A stretch of 64,000 nt of DNA from Niabella ginsenosidivorans. Its GTDB lineage: Bacteria; Bacteroidota; Bacteroidia; Chitinophagales; Chitinophagaceae. Below are positions 33,420-40,358 of the stretch, in pieces. The notes beneath the pieces are model-generated. The model had not been told where the DNA came from. It did not search any database and worked only from the letters and a program-made list of their open reading frames with translations. The first letter of the stretch is position 1; every line of letters begins with the position of its first letter. Position numbers and translations under genes: made by a program. The DNA lies in assembly GCF_001654455.1 (NCBI RefSeq), contig NZ_CP015772.1, positions 434,001 to 498,000 of the forward strand, given 5' to 3'.

Positions 33420-33914
33420 TTAATTGCGATAATAAACAATAAGATCTGTAGCATTTACATCCGTATAACCCACCTGCCTGAGCAGGGTCACCAATTGGCC
33501 ACGGTGATAAGTGGCGTGATTGACGACCTGTGCAAATAGCTGGTAATATTTTGCGGAAGATGCTTCACCATTGAAACGCTTAAAATGAAGCTGGTCGCTC
33601 AGGCGGCTTTCATCAAAGGCTGTAACGAATGCCTTGAATTGCCCAGACAATTGTTTCCATAGCGCAATATGCTCTTCTTTCGTGCCCTGGAACGTCTTTT
33701 CTAACTGCTCAACATTTTCTTTTCCGTGCAGTCTTTGCACCCAGGCATCTTCTGAAGAAAGCATGTGGAGCGTTGTTTGCCGGATGCTGCCAAAGCTGCT
33801 GATGACCGGCTGGTTCCATTGCTCATTGCTGATATTGCTTAACCAGCCACAGGTAATTTCTGTTGCCCATAGATGGTATGCTGCCAGCTCCGTGAAATAG
33901 TTATCCATTTTCAA
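33420..33914 (-). CDS. DinB-like protein
   Basis: A 164-residue DinB-fold protein: AAYHLWATEITCGWL, TTLHMLSSEDAWVQRLHG and the ending FAQVVNHATYHRGQLVTLLRQVG provide the three His positions of the fold. This is the third DinB homologue in the window. Met1 (33914) and Met3 (33908) are equivalent starts. It lies immediately before ilvB, with 32 bases between, and after the ORF6N gene. Confidence 0.85.
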   Translation of the reverse strand: MKMDNYFTELAAYHLWATEITCGWLSNISNEQWNQPVISSFGSIRQTTLHMLSSEDAWVQRLHGKENVEQLEKTFQGTKEEHIALWKQLSGQFKAFVTAFDESRLSDQLHFKRFNGEASSAKYYQLFAQVVNHATYHRGQLVTLLRQVGYTDVNATDLIVYYRN

Positions 33915-33937
33915 ATTGCCTGTTTTTTTTTACCGGA

Positions 33938-34513
33938 TTATTTTTTAAATCCTATTCGTTCCCTGTTTTCCCATTTTCGCTCAGCCGCTTTTTCATCCAA
34001 TAAATTTTCGAGCGCATCATAAATATGGCTGAGCTGCACATCATGCCCGCCGACTCGTTCTTTCAATTCTTTTATCTGCTCTTTAATGTCATTTTGTTGC
34101 AGCAAAATTTTTCTTACTTCCACAAATGCCCGCATGATGGCTATATTCATCTGAATAGCGCGATCACTGTTTAAAATACCACTCAGCATCGCCACGCCCT
34201 GTTCGGTAAAAGCATACGGCAATGTACTACGATGCCTTTGGGAACCGGTCACAAATTGTGACCGGTTCCCTGTAGTATTTTGATTATCAATGCTTTCAAT
34301 ATATGCTACATTAACTTCTGGTTTTATGTTGGTCCATTCCTGACGGGTGAGCTGAAACATAAAGTCTTTTGGAAAGCGTTTGATATTTCTTTTTACAGCC
34401 TGATTAAACGCCTTTGTTTCCACTTCATACAGCGCTGCCAGGTCAAAGTCAAGAAGCACCCGTTCACCTCTGATTTCATAAATCCTGTTTTGTATGGATC
34501 GTATTATCTGCAT
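33938..34513 (-). CDS. ORF6N domain protein
   Basis: A 191-residue ORF6N (KilA-N-associated) DNA-binding-type protein: RIYEIRGERVLLDFDLAALYEVETKAFNQAVKRNIKRFP, DFMFQLTRQEW, LPYAFTEQGVAMLSGILNSDRAIQMNI and a C-terminal coiled coil (LLQQNDIKEQIKELKERVGGHDVQL). Members occur in phages and widely in Bacteroidota chromosomes with unknown function. The gene contains a perfect 31-bp palindrome at 34240-34270 that codes for the segment around NRSQFVTGS. It sits between the candidate immunity gene and a DinB gene. Confidence 0.9.
   Translation of the reverse strand: MQIIRSIQNRIYEIRGERVLLDFDLAALYEVETKAFNQAVKRNIKRFPKDFMFQLTRQEWTNIKPEVNVAYIESIDNQNTTGNRSQFVTGSQRHRSTLPYAFTEQGVAMLSGILNSDRAIQMNIAIMRAFVEVRKILLQQNDIKEQIKELKERVGGHDVQLSHIYDALENLLDEKAAERKWENRERIGFKK
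34240..34270. repeat. perfect 31-bp palindrome inside the ORF6N gene
   Basis: Arms of 15 bp, GGGAACCGGTCACAA and its exact complement, flank a single central base. Outer bases TACTAC and GTAGTA extend the symmetry imperfectly. Confidence 0.9.
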
Positions 34514-34538
34514 TTTAATTGTTATCAGAACTATAGTG

Positions 34539-34934
34539 CTATCTTTTTTGCATTATCGCGCTTATAATAATCAGTATAACCGGAAGCATGGCATAACCCC
34601 AGCAAAAAAAAGTTCCAAAACCTGTAGACTGAAATATTGTGTTCTTATAATAATTGATATTACAAAAAGACTTGTATCGGTCATTTGTTATTAAGTAATT
34701 ATAGATGGGTAAACATGCTACTATACCACCAAGAAGGTAGAGAAGTTTGTATTTAGAATTAATGTTGATGATCGGAATATTCAATATGTTATTTAAATTC
34801 AGTATAATACCCAAAATCAATAAAAGGGTGAATAAAGCGGTTAAAGAAAAAGCATACGTATCCGGATCTTTGTCCGGCCATCTTGCATTGTAGAACATAT
34901 AAATCCTGAAAAAAAAATATTTAAGGAAAAGCAT
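34539..34934 (-). CDS. small membrane protein, candidate immunity protein
   Basis: A 131-residue protein with about three membrane helices (SLTALFTLLLILGIIL, YLLGGIVACLPIYNYLI and MLPVILIIISAIM) and a polar N-terminal FRIYMFYNARWPDKDPDTY. Its composition is visibly more AT-rich than its neighbours. ATG at 34934 was chosen because it starts 13 bases after the upstream stop; longer frames would run far into the preceding gene. Small membrane proteins of this style are common beside Rhs-type toxin ends in Bacteroidota, hence the immunity proposal (inference). Confidence 0.5.
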   Translation of the reverse strand: MLFLKYFFFRIYMFYNARWPDKDPDTYAFSLTALFTLLLILGIILNLNNILNIPIININSKYKLLYLLGGIVACLPIYNYLITNDRYKSFCNINYYKNTIFQSTGFGTFFCWGYAMLPVILIIISAIMQKR

Positions 34935-34947
34935 CAACAATGAGTTT

Positions 34948-35862
34948 TTAAGGTACGTACATGATCCTCCTGGCTTTATAATAACTGTCAGCAGCATCCT
35001 CAATACTTTTTGCTGTTGGTAAAATAAAGTTTTGCCATACTTCATGCCACCAGTCATTTCCTGAAAGTGTGAGCACCCCATCCGTCAGGAAATACAATCC
35101 CGAAATGATCCAGCCGGGACCAGGAATAAAGGCCACCCCGGTCATGATTACGTCCAGGGCCAGTTTGCCGTTTGCCTCGGCGGTAAATCCTTTATTCGCT
35201 GCGTCTGCAACTGATAACACCACTCCGCCGGCTGCGGTTAAATGACCTGCTACTTTTACAAGTTTCATTGTTTTAAAAGTGGCATTAAAAGCCGCTTTTT
35301 CAACAGCAACAGCATCAGCAGCAACGGCTGCATTGCCTTTGAATCCTGTTTTCCAGACCCGCTTCCCGTTCCAGTTAGCAATAAACTTCCCTTCTTTTAC
35401 TACTGTTTTAAATGTTTCATAATCTTTGATGGTCAAATAGGCCTCGGTAGCTGTACCGGTAGCTGCCATTCCTATACCTGATAAGGGTATCCAGTTTTTT
35501 GAAAAATAATTGCCGGCAACGCTGTTATTTCTATAATAGGTGTTATCCCTTGCTGCCCTCATGTCTGAACCTGTAACAGAATAGGAGGATTGAGGTACTG
35601 TTAATCTTTTACCTTGCGTGCGCAGATCTAAGCTGTTAAGATGGGCATATGTATTGCCGCTCACTTCCCGGAACGTATATACCCGGCTGGTGTCCGGGCG
35701 TAACGTACCGTCGCTTAAAATGCCGGGCCTGCAAACCGGAAAACGATCCGGTTTAAAACCAAAATCACGAACCAAACGGCTTTGAGCCTGGATGCTGTTT
35801 TTATGAGTGCCATACAGATAATCATGGAACAGCATTATTTGGGTAGCATCATCCTTTGTCAT
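34948..35862 (-). CDS. candidate polymorphic-toxin C-terminal-like protein
   Basis: A 304-residue protein without signal peptide that I cannot assign to a family. Residues 1-195 are polar, and about 205-265 form two glycine-rich hydrophobic hairpins (VAGHLTAAGGVVLSVADA; VIMTGVAFIPGPGWIISGLYF) followed by TDGVLTLSGNDWWHEV. Such GFIPG-type hairpins occur in C-terminal parts of Rhs and other polymorphic toxins, so this may be a pore-forming or membrane-inserting toxin module detached from its carrier. The following gene encodes a small membrane protein that could be its immunity partner. It is inserted between ilvD and ilvB. Confidence 0.45.
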   Translation of the reverse strand: MTKDDATQIMLFHDYLYGTHKNSIQAQSRLVRDFGFKPDRFPVCRPGILSDGTLRPDTSRVYTFREVSGNTYAHLNSLDLRTQGKRLTVPQSSYSVTGSDMRAARDNTYYRNNSVAGNYFSKNWIPLSGIGMAATGTATEAYLTIKDYETFKTVVKEGKFIANWNGKRVWKTGFKGNAAVAADAVAVEKAAFNATFKTMKLVKVAGHLTAAGGVVLSVADAANKGFTAEANGKLALDVIMTGVAFIPGPGWIISGLYFLTDGVLTLSGNDWWHEVWQNFILPTAKSIEDAADSYYKARRIMYVP

Positions 35863-35897: not shown

Positions 35898-37583
35898 TTA
35901 CGCTTCATCCGTTACACAGCCTTCACTCGCAGACTTCACAAATTTTGCATATTTGTACAGCACACCGCTGGTGGCCTTAGGCGCAGGGCGTTTCCACGCG
36001 GCCCGGCGTTTGGCAATTTCTTCCTCGGAAACTTTTAACGTAAGCGTGTTCTTAATGGCATCTATTTCAATAATGTCATTATCCTGCACCAGGCCTATTA
36101 AGCCGCCTTCATAAGCTTCCGGGGTAATATGCCCTACAACAAAGCCGTGCGTACCTCCGCTGAACCGGCCATCGGTAATCAGGGCAACAGAATTACCCAA
36201 ACCTGCACCAATGATGGCTCCTGTGGGTTTCAGCATTTCGGGCATGCCGGGTGCGCCTTTGGGCCCGATGTTACGTATAACCACCACATCGCCTGCATGC
36301 ACCCTGCCGCTTGATATACCAGCGATCAGATCCTGCTCACCGTCAAATACGCGCGCGGTGCCTTCAAAGCGCTCACCTTCTTTCCCGGTAATCTTTGCCA
36401 CGCTTCCGCCCTCGGCAAGGTTTCCGTACAGTATCTGCAGGTGCCCTGTTTTCTTTATGGGGTCTTCTAACGGCTGCACAATTTTCTGTTCATCAAAATT
36501 CAGTTCCGGCACATCCTGCAAATTTTCTGCAACGGTCTTTCCGGTTACGGTAAGGCAGTCGCCGTGCAGCATTCCGTTCTTTAATAAATACTTCATTACC
36601 GGGGGTAAGCCACCCTGTTTGTGTAAATCCTCCATCAGGTATTTTCCGCTTGGCTTAAAATCGGCCAGCATAGGCACTTTATCGCTTATTTTCTGAAAAT
36701 CATCAATGGTCAGATCCACACCTGCAGCTTTTGCCACGGCAATCAGGTGCAGCACGGCATTGGTGCTTCCGCCCAGGACCATTATTACGGTAATGGCATT
36801 TTCAAATGCCTTGCGTGTCATAATGTCTTTGGGTTTAATATCTTTTTCCAGTAACAGTTTAATGGCCTTACCGATGGTTTCACACTCTTTCTGCTTGTCT
36901 TCACTTAAGGCAGGGTTACTGCTGGAGTAGGGCAGGCTCATGCCCAGGGCTTCAGCCGCACTTGCCATTGTATTTGCGGTGTACATGCCGCCACAGGCAC
37001 CTGCTCCCGGGCAGGAATGACGGATAATGCCTTTAAAATCTGCCTCATCCAGGTTCCCTGCGATCTTTTGCCCCAATGCTTCAAAGGCTGAAACAATGTT
37101 GAGGTTATCCTGTCCTTTATAATGACCGGCTGCAATGGTGCCGCCGTACAGCATAATACCCGGGCGATTCAGCCGTGCCATGGCCATTAATGAACCCGGC
37201 ATATTTTTATCGCAACCCGGAATGGTGATCAATGCATCGTAGTATTGAGCACCTGCGTTGGTTTCAATGCTGTCCGCAATCAGGTCGCGGCTAACAAGGC
37301 TGTAACGCATTCCATTAGTACCCATACTGATGCCGTCACTCACTCCGATGGTATAAAACCTTAAACCTTTAAGATTTTCAGCGTTTACGCTGTCACGCAC
37401 TTTTGTGGCCAGGTCGTTCAGGTGCATGTTACAGGGATTGCCGTCCCATCCCATGCTTACAATGCCCACCTGCGGCTTACCGAAATCTTCCTCTTTAAAA
37501 CCGATGGCATAATACATTGCCTGCGCGCCCGGTAGCGTTTCATCCTGTGTAAGGGTCCTGGAATACTTGTTTAACTCTGCCAT
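35898..37583 (-). CDS. ilvD: dihydroxy-acid dehydratase
   Basis: A 561-residue iron-sulfur enzyme that dehydrates dihydroxy acids to 2-oxo acids in Val/Ile/Leu synthesis. The cluster cysteines lie in [26 protein letters not shown] and [19 protein letters not shown], with the Lys of DKN the expected carbamylated metal ligand. [12 protein letters not shown] and [26 protein letters not shown] are typical. The transcript is preceded by a leader peptide and terminator (37622-37821) that form an attenuator. The next gene on the operon is the toxin-like gene, 35 bases away. Confidence 0.97.
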
Positions 37584-37621: not shown

Positions 37622-37649
37622 AAAAAACCCGCCTTTATGGAGGCGGGTT
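37622..37649 (-). terminator. ilv attenuator terminator
   Basis: On the minus strand AACCCGCCT and AGGCGGGTT form a 9-bp stem around CCATAA followed by TTTTTTA, an intrinsic terminator 39 bases upstream of the ilvD ATG. Its 5' arm plus loop (CCCGCCTCCAT) can instead pair with ATGGAGGAGGG in the leader-peptide gene, 10 of 11 bases, which would prevent the terminator from forming. Confidence 0.9.
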
Positions 37650-37672
37650 ATATCGGAAATCCGTTTGTTTTA

Positions 37673-37771
37673 CTAAATAATCCCTCCTCCATTTTTATGT
37701 AAAATGACAATGGCAAAGACCACAATAGCATTGCGGAATAATTGAGAACGGTTATGTGCATTGTCAAACAT
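37673..37771 (-). CDS. ilv operon leader peptide, 32 aa
   Basis: An ORF of 32 codons from ATG 37771 to TAG 37673, located between a promoter and the attenuator terminator. Codons 15-24 read AIVVFAIVIL and codons 31-32 are Ile-Ile, so 10 of 32 residues are Ile, Val or Leu, the end products of the operon. Codons 27-30 (AAT GGA GGA GGG) contain the antiterminator strand. A ribosome stalled on the Ile/Val codons for lack of charged tRNA would leave that strand free to trap the terminator; a ribosome reaching the stop codon would cover it and let the terminator form. It is too short for ordinary gene callers. Confidence 0.85.
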   Translation of the reverse strand: MFDNAHNRSQLFRNAIVVFAIVILHKNGGGII

Positions 37772-37790
37772 CAATTGGAGAAGCTTTCAG

Positions 37791-37821
37791 CGAATATAAA
37801 GCCTCTGCTGTTTGCATCAAA
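37791..37821 (-). promoter_or_regulatory. promoter of the ilv leader
   Basis: On the minus strand TTTG (37818-37821), a 19-base spacer and TATATTCG (37791-37798) match the Bacteroidota TTTG-N19-TAnnTTTG promoter with one mismatch in the -7 box. The leader ATG begins about 20 bases downstream, so its 5' leader would be short. Confidence 0.6.
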
Positions 37822-37870: not shown

Positions 37871-38863
37871 TTAAATGATCGTTGATTTCTGCAATGCCAT
37901 ATTTTCACCTTTGGCAAAGCCGGGTATAGAGCCCCGTATAAAATCGCTGATCAGCTCACCTATTGTACTGGTTGAATAATTATTGACCGGGTCAATATCT
38001 TTTGCAACAAAACCATGCAGCAATGTCCAGTTTACAGCGGTGCGCACAATTAACGCCTCTTCATGCATGTTAAAATAATTCAGCATGATAGCGGCTGCCA
38101 GAATTGTTCCTGCCGGGTTGACCTGATTTTTTCCTGTATCTGCGTCCTTTATGCCAAAAGCAGGACCGAAGAAAGAACTGTGCTCTGTGGCCAGAACAGA
38201 AGGGATCATTGCCGGGGTGCCGGAAAGTGCCGCTGCCTGATGAAACAGGTAGTAGCCCGCATCCATGTTAGTGATGATGACATCAAAATCTGCCGGGTGG
38301 TGCATGAATGCCCGTATGGCATTGCTTATTTCCATATGCTCAATGAGCACTCCGGGATATTCTTTACCATATTGTGTCAGCAGGGGCTGCCAGGAAGCCG
38401 TGCTGCCGGCTGCTTCAGAAGTACGGATAAACGTAATTTTTTGTTTCCGGCCTGAAGCCTGCTCAAAAGCAGACTGGGCAATTCTCCTGCGGCTGCCCTC
38501 GCCTGCTGTTAAAGTGGGCTCCTGGTAAAGGATCAGATTTACGTTCTCAATGTATTTATTCTTTAAAGGCGATAAATGATGCAGTGAATGATATACCACC
38601 ACCGGCTGCGCAATGGCAAACAGCGGGAATTCTTTTTGAATTACTTCCGCTGCTGCACTGCCTGCGAAGAGCACTGCGTCAGCAACTGCAATAATATCTT
38701 TTGAATCCTGCGAAAGATGCGGTGCTGAAAGATCGGGCAAAACAGATGTAAACTCAAACAGATGCTCATACTGCTCGGCAACAGCTTTTAATACCTTTGC
38801 TGCCTGTTCTGTTGCTTCTGCTGCTGCCCCCGGCTCTTCTATGATCGCGATCTTCTTTTTCAT
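37871..38863 (-). CDS. isopropylmalate/isocitrate dehydrogenase-like protein, probably inactive
   Basis: A 330-residue relative of LeuB. The second half aligns with the family (FDVIITNMDAGYYLFHQAAALSGTPAMIPS ... FGPAFGIKDADTGKNQVNPAGTILAAAIMLNYF). Key positions have changed: the N-terminal GDGIGPE loop is replaced by EEPGAAAEA, and the metal-binding Asp residues of the usual N-x-x-G-D-I-L-S-D segment are lost (NMDAGYYLFHQ). It is therefore unlikely to be a normal dehydrogenase and may be regulatory or serve another reaction. It starts 1 base after the ABC-ATPase gene ends and lies between leuA and ilvD, where leuB would be expected. Confidence 0.7.
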   Translation of the reverse strand: MKKKIAIIEEPGAAAEATEQAAKVLKAVAEQYEHLFEFTSVLPDLSAPHLSQDSKDIIAVADAVLFAGSAAAEVIQKEFPLFAIAQPVVVYHSLHHLSPLKNKYIENVNLILYQEPTLTAGEGSRRRIAQSAFEQASGRKQKITFIRTSEAAGSTASWQPLLTQYGKEYPGVLIEHMEISNAIRAFMHHPADFDVIITNMDAGYYLFHQAAALSGTPAMIPSVLATEHSSFFGPAFGIKDADTGKNQVNPAGTILAAAIMLNYFNMHEEALIVRTAVNWTLLHGFVAKDIDPVNNYSTSTIGELISDFIRGSIPGFAKGENMALQKSTII

Positions 38864-38864
38864 T

Positions 38865-40358
38865 TTATAAAGCCTTATGTGTTAATGCGGTTTTTGATTT
38901 TATGACCGGGTGTGGAACGGTCTTTTTATAAACCGCAGGTATCCCTTTGTTCAGTTCCAGTACGTGTTTTACACAGGCAGGAACCTCGTCGTCATAATGG
39001 CTGATGAAGAGCTGGGTCATTCCCGTTTCCCGGTGAATGCGCTCTAACAGCTGCACCACCATTTTTGACTGCTGGTCATCCAACCCCTGGCAGGGCTCAT
39101 CCAGCGCCAGCATCAGCGGGTCTTTGATCAATGCTCTTGCAATGAGCACCAGGCGCTGCTCGCCACTTGATAAAGAAGACAGCGGGCGATGCGCTTTGTC
39201 CTGTAATGCAAAGAACGAAAGCCATTCATTTACTTTTGCGGTCTGGGCCTCATTTAATTTCCGGAACAGCCCGATCGTATCAAAGAAGCCGGAACCTACC
39301 GCCTGTGCAATAGATGTGGAGCGGTCAAAGAAATTCTGCAGTTCGGGCGACACAAAGCCGATGCGGCTTTTAATATCCCAGATGCTTTCACCGGTGCCCC
39401 GTCTTTTGCCGAATAAATAGATTTGCTGGGAATAAGCCTGCGGGTTATCCCCGTTTATTAAACTGAGCAGGGTAGATTTGCCGGCACCGTTGTGGCCTTT
39501 GATTTGCCAGCACTCTCCATTGTTTACCTGCCAGTTGATATTGTTTAAAATAATGGTATTGCCATACCGGATAGTAACGTCCTTCATGGTAATGAGCGGA
39601 CCTATATGGTAGGCTTTTTTCATTGCCGGAAGCGGGGCCTCAAATTGCCGCACCTGCATAGATTCCATAAAGCCCAGCTTTTCTACAGGAGCATAATTGA
39701 TCACTGCCCCGTCTGCCATTTCTGCAAAATGAGTAATGCTTGCAGGCAGCTCATGGCTGTCGGTTATCAATATTAGAGTAATGCCGTCTGCTGCCAGCTG
39801 GTTCAGCACTTTGTGCAATACCTTCCGGCTTTTGACATCCAGGCCGGTAAATACTTTATCCAGGATCAGGATGTCCGGGTGCGCTAACAAATGGCTGATC
39901 AGCTGCATTTTCTTTAATTCACCATTGGACAGCTGGATCAAAGGCGTATGAGCACGGTGTGTTAGCTGAAACTGCTCCAGCCAGTTGCTGATCGCCTCCG
40001 GGCTTCCTTTTTTTAACAGCTCTTCTGTTAAGGTTGCCGCATCTTCCGCATCACAGGTATTGAAGCGTTGCTGGTAATAGAAATCAGCAACATTGGATTT
40101 GTTTTTTAAGGGATGCGTTGCAGGAACATAGGCTACGGTGGGTTTTACGGGTTCATTGTTCCTTTTATAAGCTATAGTGCCGGCATGGAATAGTTCTCCC
40201 TTCAGGGCTTTTGCCAGCAAGGTTTTACCACTGCCGCTTGCGCCAAACAGGGCCAGGTGCTCTCCGGCATTTAGGGTAAAGCTGATGTTGTCCAACAGCA
40301 GCCTGCCCGCCTGTTGCACTGTTACATTGTTTAAAATAATATTAAAGTTCCGTTCCAT
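38865..40358 (-). CDS. tandem ABC ATPase (ModF/PhrA-like)
   Basis: A 497-residue soluble protein with two ABC domains and no membrane segment. Domain 1 (about 7-230): Walker A GASGSGKT, signature LSNGELKK, Walker B ILILDKVFTGLD, where the usual catalytic Glu after Asp is Lys. Domain 2 (about 252-480): Walker A GHNGAGKS, signature LSSGEQR and Walker B LMLALDEPCQGLD, with the catalytic Glu intact. The tandem layout without a permease is that of ModF/PhrA, whose role is poorly defined. It lies between leuA and the LeuB-like gene and is nearly fused to the latter, suggesting joint regulation. Confidence 0.85.
   Translation of the reverse strand: MERNFNIILNNVTVQQAGRLLLDNISFTLNAGEHLALFGASGSGKTLLAKALKGELFHAGTIAYKRNNEPVKPTVAYVPATHPLKNKSNVADFYYQQRFNTCDAEDAATLTEELLKKGSPEAISNWLEQFQLTHRAHTPLIQLSNGELKKMQLISHLLAHPDILILDKVFTGLDVKSRKVLHKVLNQLAADGITLILITDSHELPASITHFAEMADGAVINYAPVEKLGFMESMQVRQFEAPLPAMKKAYHIGPLITMKDVTIRYGNTIILNNINWQVNNGECWQIKGHNGAGKSTLLSLINGDNPQAYSQQIYLFGKRRGTGESIWDIKSRIGFVSPELQNFFDRSTSIAQAVGSGFFDTIGLFRKLNEAQTAKVNEWLSFFALQDKAHRPLSSLSSGEQRLVLIARALIKDPLMLALDEPCQGLDDQQSKMVVQLLERIHRETGMTQLFISHYDDEVPACVKHVLELNKGIPAVYKKTVPHPVIKSKTALTHKAL

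Follow-up and report, generated by a model that had tools for sequence, protein, structure and literature searches.

A predicted four-segment transcription attenuator upstream of ilvD in Niabella ginsenosidivorans and its relatives

The leader-peptide attenuators of E. coli and Salmonella, as listed in the relevant part of PMC1183508, are those of ilvGMEDA, ilvBN, leu, thr, pheA, trp and his. For C. glutamicum ilvBNC, the passages on the leader describe an attenuator of three hairpins, of which the antiantiterminator, H1, shields the leader initiation region (PMC11857589). In F. psychrophilum, a 2021 transcriptome report speaks of ‘strong clues’ for leader-peptide attenuation before amino-acid operons (PMC9723704), in the same phylum and with the same proposed mechanism as considered here; the passage in question names no genes, ‘ilv’ is absent from the main text, and the passages on attenuation contain neither a segment architecture nor a family-wide comparison. 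Leader-peptide attenuation is thus both classic and already suspected in the phylum, and the ilvD leader described here is a further, well-supported case. A 2004 comparative attenuation study by Vitreschak and colleagues reportedly mentions Bacteroidetes/Chlorobi. We found no earlier description of the family's ilvD leader in the portions of the literature searched.

The ilvD locus resembles the E. coli and Salmonella systems in having a leader ORF with control codons, a mutually exclusive antiterminator and terminator, and a terminator placed just before the structural gene. In trp, the control codons overlap with segment 1, which a stalled ribosome therefore masks, whereas segment 1 of the ilvD leader lies at the start codon, about 45–70 nt upstream of the control codons. 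H1 of C. glutamicum ilvBNC, as portrayed in that account, provides a precedent for such a segment, and the two systems are alike in being branched-chain amino acid leaders that do not rely on a ribosome binding site (PMC11857589). They differ in that the C. glutamicum leader, in the same passages, has an unrelated sequence (MTIIRLVVVTARRLP), belongs to another phylum, regulates another gene and has its transcription start one nucleotide from the start codon, whereas the ilvD leader has a short 5′ UTR (PMC11857589). No Rfam family reached its gathering score in the window (the whole stretch of 64,000 nucleotides that was analysed), so that no T-box, riboswitch or known leader was recognized there; the best of the relevant weak scores were 18.6 for Thr_leader (cut-off 55), 17.2 for Phe_leader (55) and 15.9 for Trp_leader (41). 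The locus gives a sequence-level view of a four-segment attenuator that is conserved across many genera of a Bacteroidota family and has no matching Rfam family. We regard the segment 1 at the start codon as the part most worth testing.

The leader and its surroundings

The features given with coordinates in this section lie on the minus strand of the window. The proposed regulated gene, ilvD (35898–37583), encodes a dihydroxy-acid dehydratase with Pfam matches to PF00920 ILVD_EDD_N and PF24877 ILV_EDD_C. A predicted promoter of the Bacteroidota type, TTTG-N19-TATATTCG, can be read at 37791–37821, with a -33 TTTG at 37821–37818, a spacer of 19 nt and the -7 box at 37798–37791. The original prediction had the motif and the spacer right, but gave the range as 37818–37791, whereas TTTG begins at 37821. 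By analogy with the TAnnTTTG box of F. psychrophilum, which the promoter passage of that report places at -12 to -5 (PMC9723704), transcription would start near 37786.

The ATG at 37771 opens a leader ORF of 32 codons, MFDNAHNRSQLFRNAIVVFAIVILHKNGGGII (37673–37771, stop TAG at 37675–37673), whose codons 15–24 read AIVVFAIVIL, in agreement with what had been claimed; the control codons are 16–24, IVVFAIVIL. Near its C-terminal end the peptide has Gly-Gly-Gly, encoded by segment 2 (ATGGAGGAGGG, 37682–37692), the antiterminator strand. This segment can pair at 10 of 11 positions with CCCGCCTCCAT at 37647–37637, again as originally described. That partner lies within segment 3 (37637–37649), which comprises the 5′ arm of the terminator and part of its loop. 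Segment 4 with the T run (37622–37634) completes the intrinsic terminator, a hairpin of -18.4 kcal/mol with a stem of 9 bp (37649–37641 with 37634–37626) and a T run at 37627–37622. The 9-bp terminator at 37649–37622 had been correctly identified, and only its distance from the ilvD ATG (37583) needs correction, from 39 bases to 38. The original prediction did not include segment 1 (CTTCTCCA, 37776–37783), which lies directly 5′ of the leader start codon and can form an 8-bp helix with the part of segment 2 that reads TGGAGGAG (37691–37684).

Upstream of ilvD on the same strand lie a leuB-like gene, an ABC ATPase gene and leuA; on reading the region 5′ of leuA in the window, we saw no Ile/Leu/Val leader with terminator. 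The best Iso_dh stretch of the leuB-like protein (37871–38863) covers residues 125–305 (profile positions 163–348), in its C-terminal half; the N-terminal half looks strongly diverged, and the protein may therefore not be an ordinary LeuB. The ABC ATPase (38865–40358), with two ABC domains, is encoded downstream of leuA and upstream of the leuB-like gene; in one congener, G007, a similar-looking ORF was also seen by eye between leuA and leuB. The ilvB, ilvN and ilvC genes are found further downstream of ilvD, with other genes in between: 33420–35862, between ilvD and ilvB, holds an ORF6N-domain protein (PF10543), a DinB-like ORF and an ORF of 304 amino acids without a Pfam match, the Pfam comparison having covered the first and the third of these. 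Because of these intervening ORFs, co-transcription of ilvD with ilvBNC in N. ginsenosidivorans is uncertain.

Conservation of the leader and its link to ilvD

Hydrophobic ORFs arise easily by chance: when the 290-nt region was shuffled 5000 times under an order-1 Markov model, an ATG ORF with at least seven Ile, Leu or Val codons in 10 appeared 143 times. The window alone is therefore only suggestive, and conservation across relatives has to decide. The same figure is the point in favour of regarding the ORF as an ordinary small membrane-peptide gene with its own terminator, ilvD being transcribed from elsewhere. We think this extremely unlikely, because the promoter and ilvD are conserved on both sides of the leader and because of the behaviour of the segments, as set out below.

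Searching by ilvD protein homology, without use of the leader, gave 105 distinct upstream regions of at most 450 nt each (one of them 2 nt). Counted by eye, 23 of these, the window's included, contain an Ile/Leu/Val-rich ORF, and nearly all 23 ORFs end in Gly-Gly codons followed by a terminator; among the remaining regions there are many in which ilvD is not the first gene. The original prediction had proposed that relatives be searched for a conserved Ile/Val/Leu-rich ORF plus terminator before ilvD, and an ORF rich in Ile and Val with a terminator is indeed found there in the family.

From 21 of these leaders we built a covariance model, R1, of 113 positions with the terminator pairs only. 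In the N. ginsenosidivorans genome it finds one strong copy, that of the window (E 2e-14; next best 0.08), and across the family it matches 189 of 294 genomes and 77 of 101 genera at E ≤ 0.01. Among the matches we examined the strong ones further, as far down as E 1.9e-6; with L111 replaced by the window (the same copy), L240 dropped and five exact duplicates removed, they amount to 161 distinct leaders, the window included. At least seven Ile, Leu or Val codons in 10 are present in all 161 (seven of the leaders have 7 and 154 have 8–10), the window's 7 being among the weakest. R1 contains these codons, segment 2 and the terminator, so that finding them in the matches carries no independent weight; the model leaves out ilvD, the promoter and segment 1.

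ilvD lies within 1.5 kb downstream in 154 of the 161 leaders, directly (≤ 350 nt) in 62, the window among them, at 350–800 nt in two and at 800–1300 nt in 90. These last have one gene in between, which in the single case tested encodes an aminotransferase of class IV, as expected of ilvE. Of the other seven leaders, five have less than 1.2 kb of downstream sequence, and two, L148 and L170, are without ilvD within reach. In 89 of 160 relatives the 60 nt 5′ of the leader start contain the promoter motif TTTG-N18..20-TAnnTT, as against 54 of 3200 shuffles.

Coevolution of the segments and the proposed switch

The best contiguous pairing of each species' own two segments was compared with pairings across species for the 161 leaders. 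Own partners fit better for 1:2 (z 7.5), 2:3 (z 7.9) and 3:4 (z 33), and in none of the three did any of 5000 permutations reach the observed mean; the control pairings 1:3 (z 1.5) and 2:4 (z 1.6) stayed near zero (in subsets up to 2.2 and 1.8 respectively). Among representatives less than 55% identical, the values were 5.2 for 1:2 (45 leaders), 6.5 for 2:3 (43) and 8.4 for 3:4 (15). Compensatory change in the two stems had originally been suggested as a check, and across the family leaders the antiterminator and terminator strands do fit their own partners best.

We then slid a 20-nt window along the leaders of 82 representatives and scored coevolution with segment 2. The signal is strongest at -10..+9 relative to the start codon (z 6.7), with 5.4 at -20..-1 and 5.6 at 0..+19 on either side. 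The 20-nt windows that begin between -64 and -30 score from -0.4 to 1.5, and those that begin at +10 and +20 score 2.0 and 1.5 respectively. Relatedness alone does not produce the 1:2 signal, because the upstream windows have the same ancestry. Six or more contiguous 1:2 pairs can form in 137 of the 161 leaders. Examples of partner changes were taken from 151 of the 161, ten leaders without the segment-2 motif being left out: within one genus, L019 has CTCCTCCGT:ACGGAGGAG and L022 has CTCCTTCGT:ACGAAGGAG; L036 has ACGCCTCT:GGAGGCGT and L203 has CAACCT:AGGTTG. For 2:3, GGAAGTGG with CCACTTCC replaces the usual GGAGG..:..CCTCC in L004, L219, L221 and L243. In the genus set of seven sequences, 1:2 is 98.2% paired, compared with 53.6–75.0% in slid controls, and its covariation score is 0.262 versus 0.197 (14 of 500 shuffles); in the same seven sequences only one 1:2 pair shows changes in both partners, a number that is also reached by 266 of 500 shuffles, and 2:3 covariation is not above that of shuffles.

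These results bear on the small membrane peptide considered above, since segments 1 and 3, which extend beyond the coding sequence or fall entirely outside it, coevolve with segment 2, and since the distance from segment 2 to the end of the peptide is fixed while the N-terminus varies. We conclude instead, from the sequence comparisons, that the leader is in all likelihood a ribosome-mediated attenuator of transcription, built of four RNA segments that exclude one another and responding to shortage of Ile and Val, and that it is real and very probably functional. It combines a run of end-product codons, a terminator between leader ORF and ilvD, and an exclusive antiterminator that coevolves, with a protector or antiantiterminator pairing in the form of 1:2, whose coevolution is local to the start codon. 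Attenuation, as originally proposed, is thus supported by the conserved leader and the coevolution of its segments, the amino-acid response itself being predicted.

We envisage that the promoter at 37821–37791 would make an RNA from about 37786, whose 32-codon leader is translated. With ample charged Ile-tRNA and Val-tRNA, the ribosome would reach the stop codon and sit on segment 2; with segment 2 covered, the 3:4 terminator would form and transcription would end before ilvD. When these tRNAs are scarce, the ribosome would stall on codons 16–24, leaving segment 2, which begins about 15 nt past the last of the control codons, free to pair with nascent segment 3, and RNA polymerase would continue into ilvD. 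With no ribosome on segments 1 or 2, 1:2 would form, returning segment 3 to the terminator and closing the leader start site. The sequences show the parts of this scheme, their conservation and the coevolution of 1:2, 2:3 and 3:4; how the steps are timed, how the switch responds to amino acids and what 1:2 does are inferred.

The spacing is in general agreement with such a switch. Counted from its first base, the last control codon is 15 nt away from the start of segment 2 in 103 of at least 150 leaders; the median distance from the start of segment 2 to the stop codon is also 15 nt. The footprint of a bacterial ribosome extends about 12–13 nt past the first base of the A-site codon. With this footprint, a stall at the last control codon would just free segment 2, and a ribosome at termination would cover it; the earlier suggestion that a ribosome at the stop codon sits on the antiterminator strand thus fits, as far as spacing goes.

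Energies of the window's pairings are -14.6 (1:2), -18.5 (2:3) and -18.4 kcal/mol (3:4 hairpin), the medians over the 161 leaders being -10.9, -16.5 and -17.9 kcal/mol respectively. When whole leaders were folded at equilibrium with the ribosome footprints blocked, the states could not be told apart, the terminator winning in nearly every species. Because it prevails at equilibrium irrespective of the ribosome, antitermination must be kinetic. In a second scheme the RNA was cut before segment 4, and 2:3 was scored as formed at five or more expected pairs. It then formed in 148 of 161 leaders with the ribosome at the last control codon, in all 161 with the ribosome four codons earlier, and in all 161 when nothing but the start region was covered; with the ribosome at the stop codon it formed in 0 of 161 by construction, that part having been removed. 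Without a ribosome, 2:3 was still preferred to 1:2 in 149 of 161, so that 1:2 is doubtful as a firm equilibrium lock and, if protective, must act by forming first.

A further reading of 1:2, which we put forward tentatively and consider possible rather than probable, is that the attenuator closes itself: segment 2 would either pair with segment 3, and so open the operon, or fold onto the start codon after the pioneer ribosome. If so, leader translation would be shut off and the transcript committed to termination, giving one reading per transcript. On the evidence in the relevant part of PMC9976891, bacteria of this phylum do not initiate by Shine–Dalgarno pairing, so that the GGAGG inside the ORF would be free to serve as a switch strand. 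The leader also makes transcription–translation coupling and stall sensing testable in bacteria without Shine–Dalgarno initiation. In the N. ginsenosidivorans genome, the 16S tail pattern was found at four places, none a clear rRNA end, and we therefore make no claim about its anti-Shine–Dalgarno sequence.

Codon use bears on what the ribosome senses. Of the Ile, Leu and Val codons in the leaders, 51% are for Ile, 34% for Val and 14% for Leu; the control codons originally described as branched-chain are accordingly mainly those of Ile and Val, with little contribution from Leu. At the 153 loci compared, GTC accounts for 31% of Val codons in the leaders versus 9% in the ilvD frames, and CTA for 10% versus 2% of Leu codons, which may reflect a raised sensitivity to tRNA shortage or constraints on the RNA. 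That GTC is enriched beyond amino-acid need, and that III-VVV-III-P..GGG is well conserved at the residue level, could also be taken to mean that what counts is a sequence-specific arrest of the ribosome by the leader peptide, or translational coupling, and not the sensing of tRNA shortage. We judge this very unlikely, given that Ile, Leu and Val interchange freely, that an intrinsic terminator separates leader and gene, and that His, Phe and Thr/Ile leaders of the same layout in the same genome fit sensing of the cognate amino acid.

Distribution in the genus and other leaders

The leader is not universal in the genus. It is present at seven of the 15 congeneric ilvD loci examined, namely the window and six congeners, and at the other eight there is no such ORF within 450 nt upstream; G003 and G012, with broken ilvD matches, are outside this count. 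In the larger regions of five of the eight leaderless loci, leuA lies upstream, and no leader with terminator was recognized in these five regions. The leuB-like gene ends just before ilvD in G007 and G008, and in G001 ilvD follows closely behind leuA. G008 has a weak R1 match (E 0.006) somewhere in its genome.

This distribution, together with the position of ilvD in G001, G007 and G008 and the window's weak control run (7 in 10, with two non-branched-chain codons inside), might suggest that an ancestral attenuator is being lost in the genus and that the window's copy is a decaying remnant, no longer responsive. We consider this improbable, because the window has kept the promoter, all four segments and their spacing intact, its 1:2 pairing is strong (-14.6 kcal/mol) and its 2:3 is on a par with 3:4 in energy, and six congeners keep the leader. 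A working attenuator therefore remains our preferred interpretation for N. ginsenosidivorans.

In 395 genomes of the class, R1 has matches at E ≤ 0.001 in 31, of which 26 are outside the family. We viewed 25 outside-family loci, with gene starts judged by eye, and 17 of these precede amino-acid genes: hisG (three), aspartokinase (three), pheA (one), ilvE-ilvD (three), ilvD (four), a gene like that of the AHAS small subunit (two) and a threonine-dehydratase-like gene (one). The other eight are plain terminators by their look, or unreadable.

Inspection of gene upstream regions in the N. ginsenosidivorans genome gave three more candidates, with hairpin pairing judged by eye. Pattern searches were less useful there: a His-run pattern hit 39 unspecific places (27 + 12), compared with 32 for the reversed-pattern control, and a strict Thr/Ile pattern found none. 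A candidate His attenuator precedes hisG (L318:1064–1254), where an ORF ending ...MKILVHIHHHFADLPK, with the control run HIHHH, is followed by a hairpin and a T run. Before pheA (prephenate dehydratase), the ORF MKATKFFTWSYFSFFFFGTRPGTLLLK (control run FSFFFF) and a GC-rich terminator form a candidate Phe attenuator (L321:1199–1392), at which R1 has a weak match (E 0.84). Finally, a candidate Thr/Ile attenuator lies before thrA, the aspartokinase/homoserine dehydrogenase gene (L322:96–260), with the ORF MQYEVQNIQMNTGSVNGTTTTIITTPCGL, the control run TTTTIITT, a GGCC-AAA-GGCC hairpin and a T run.
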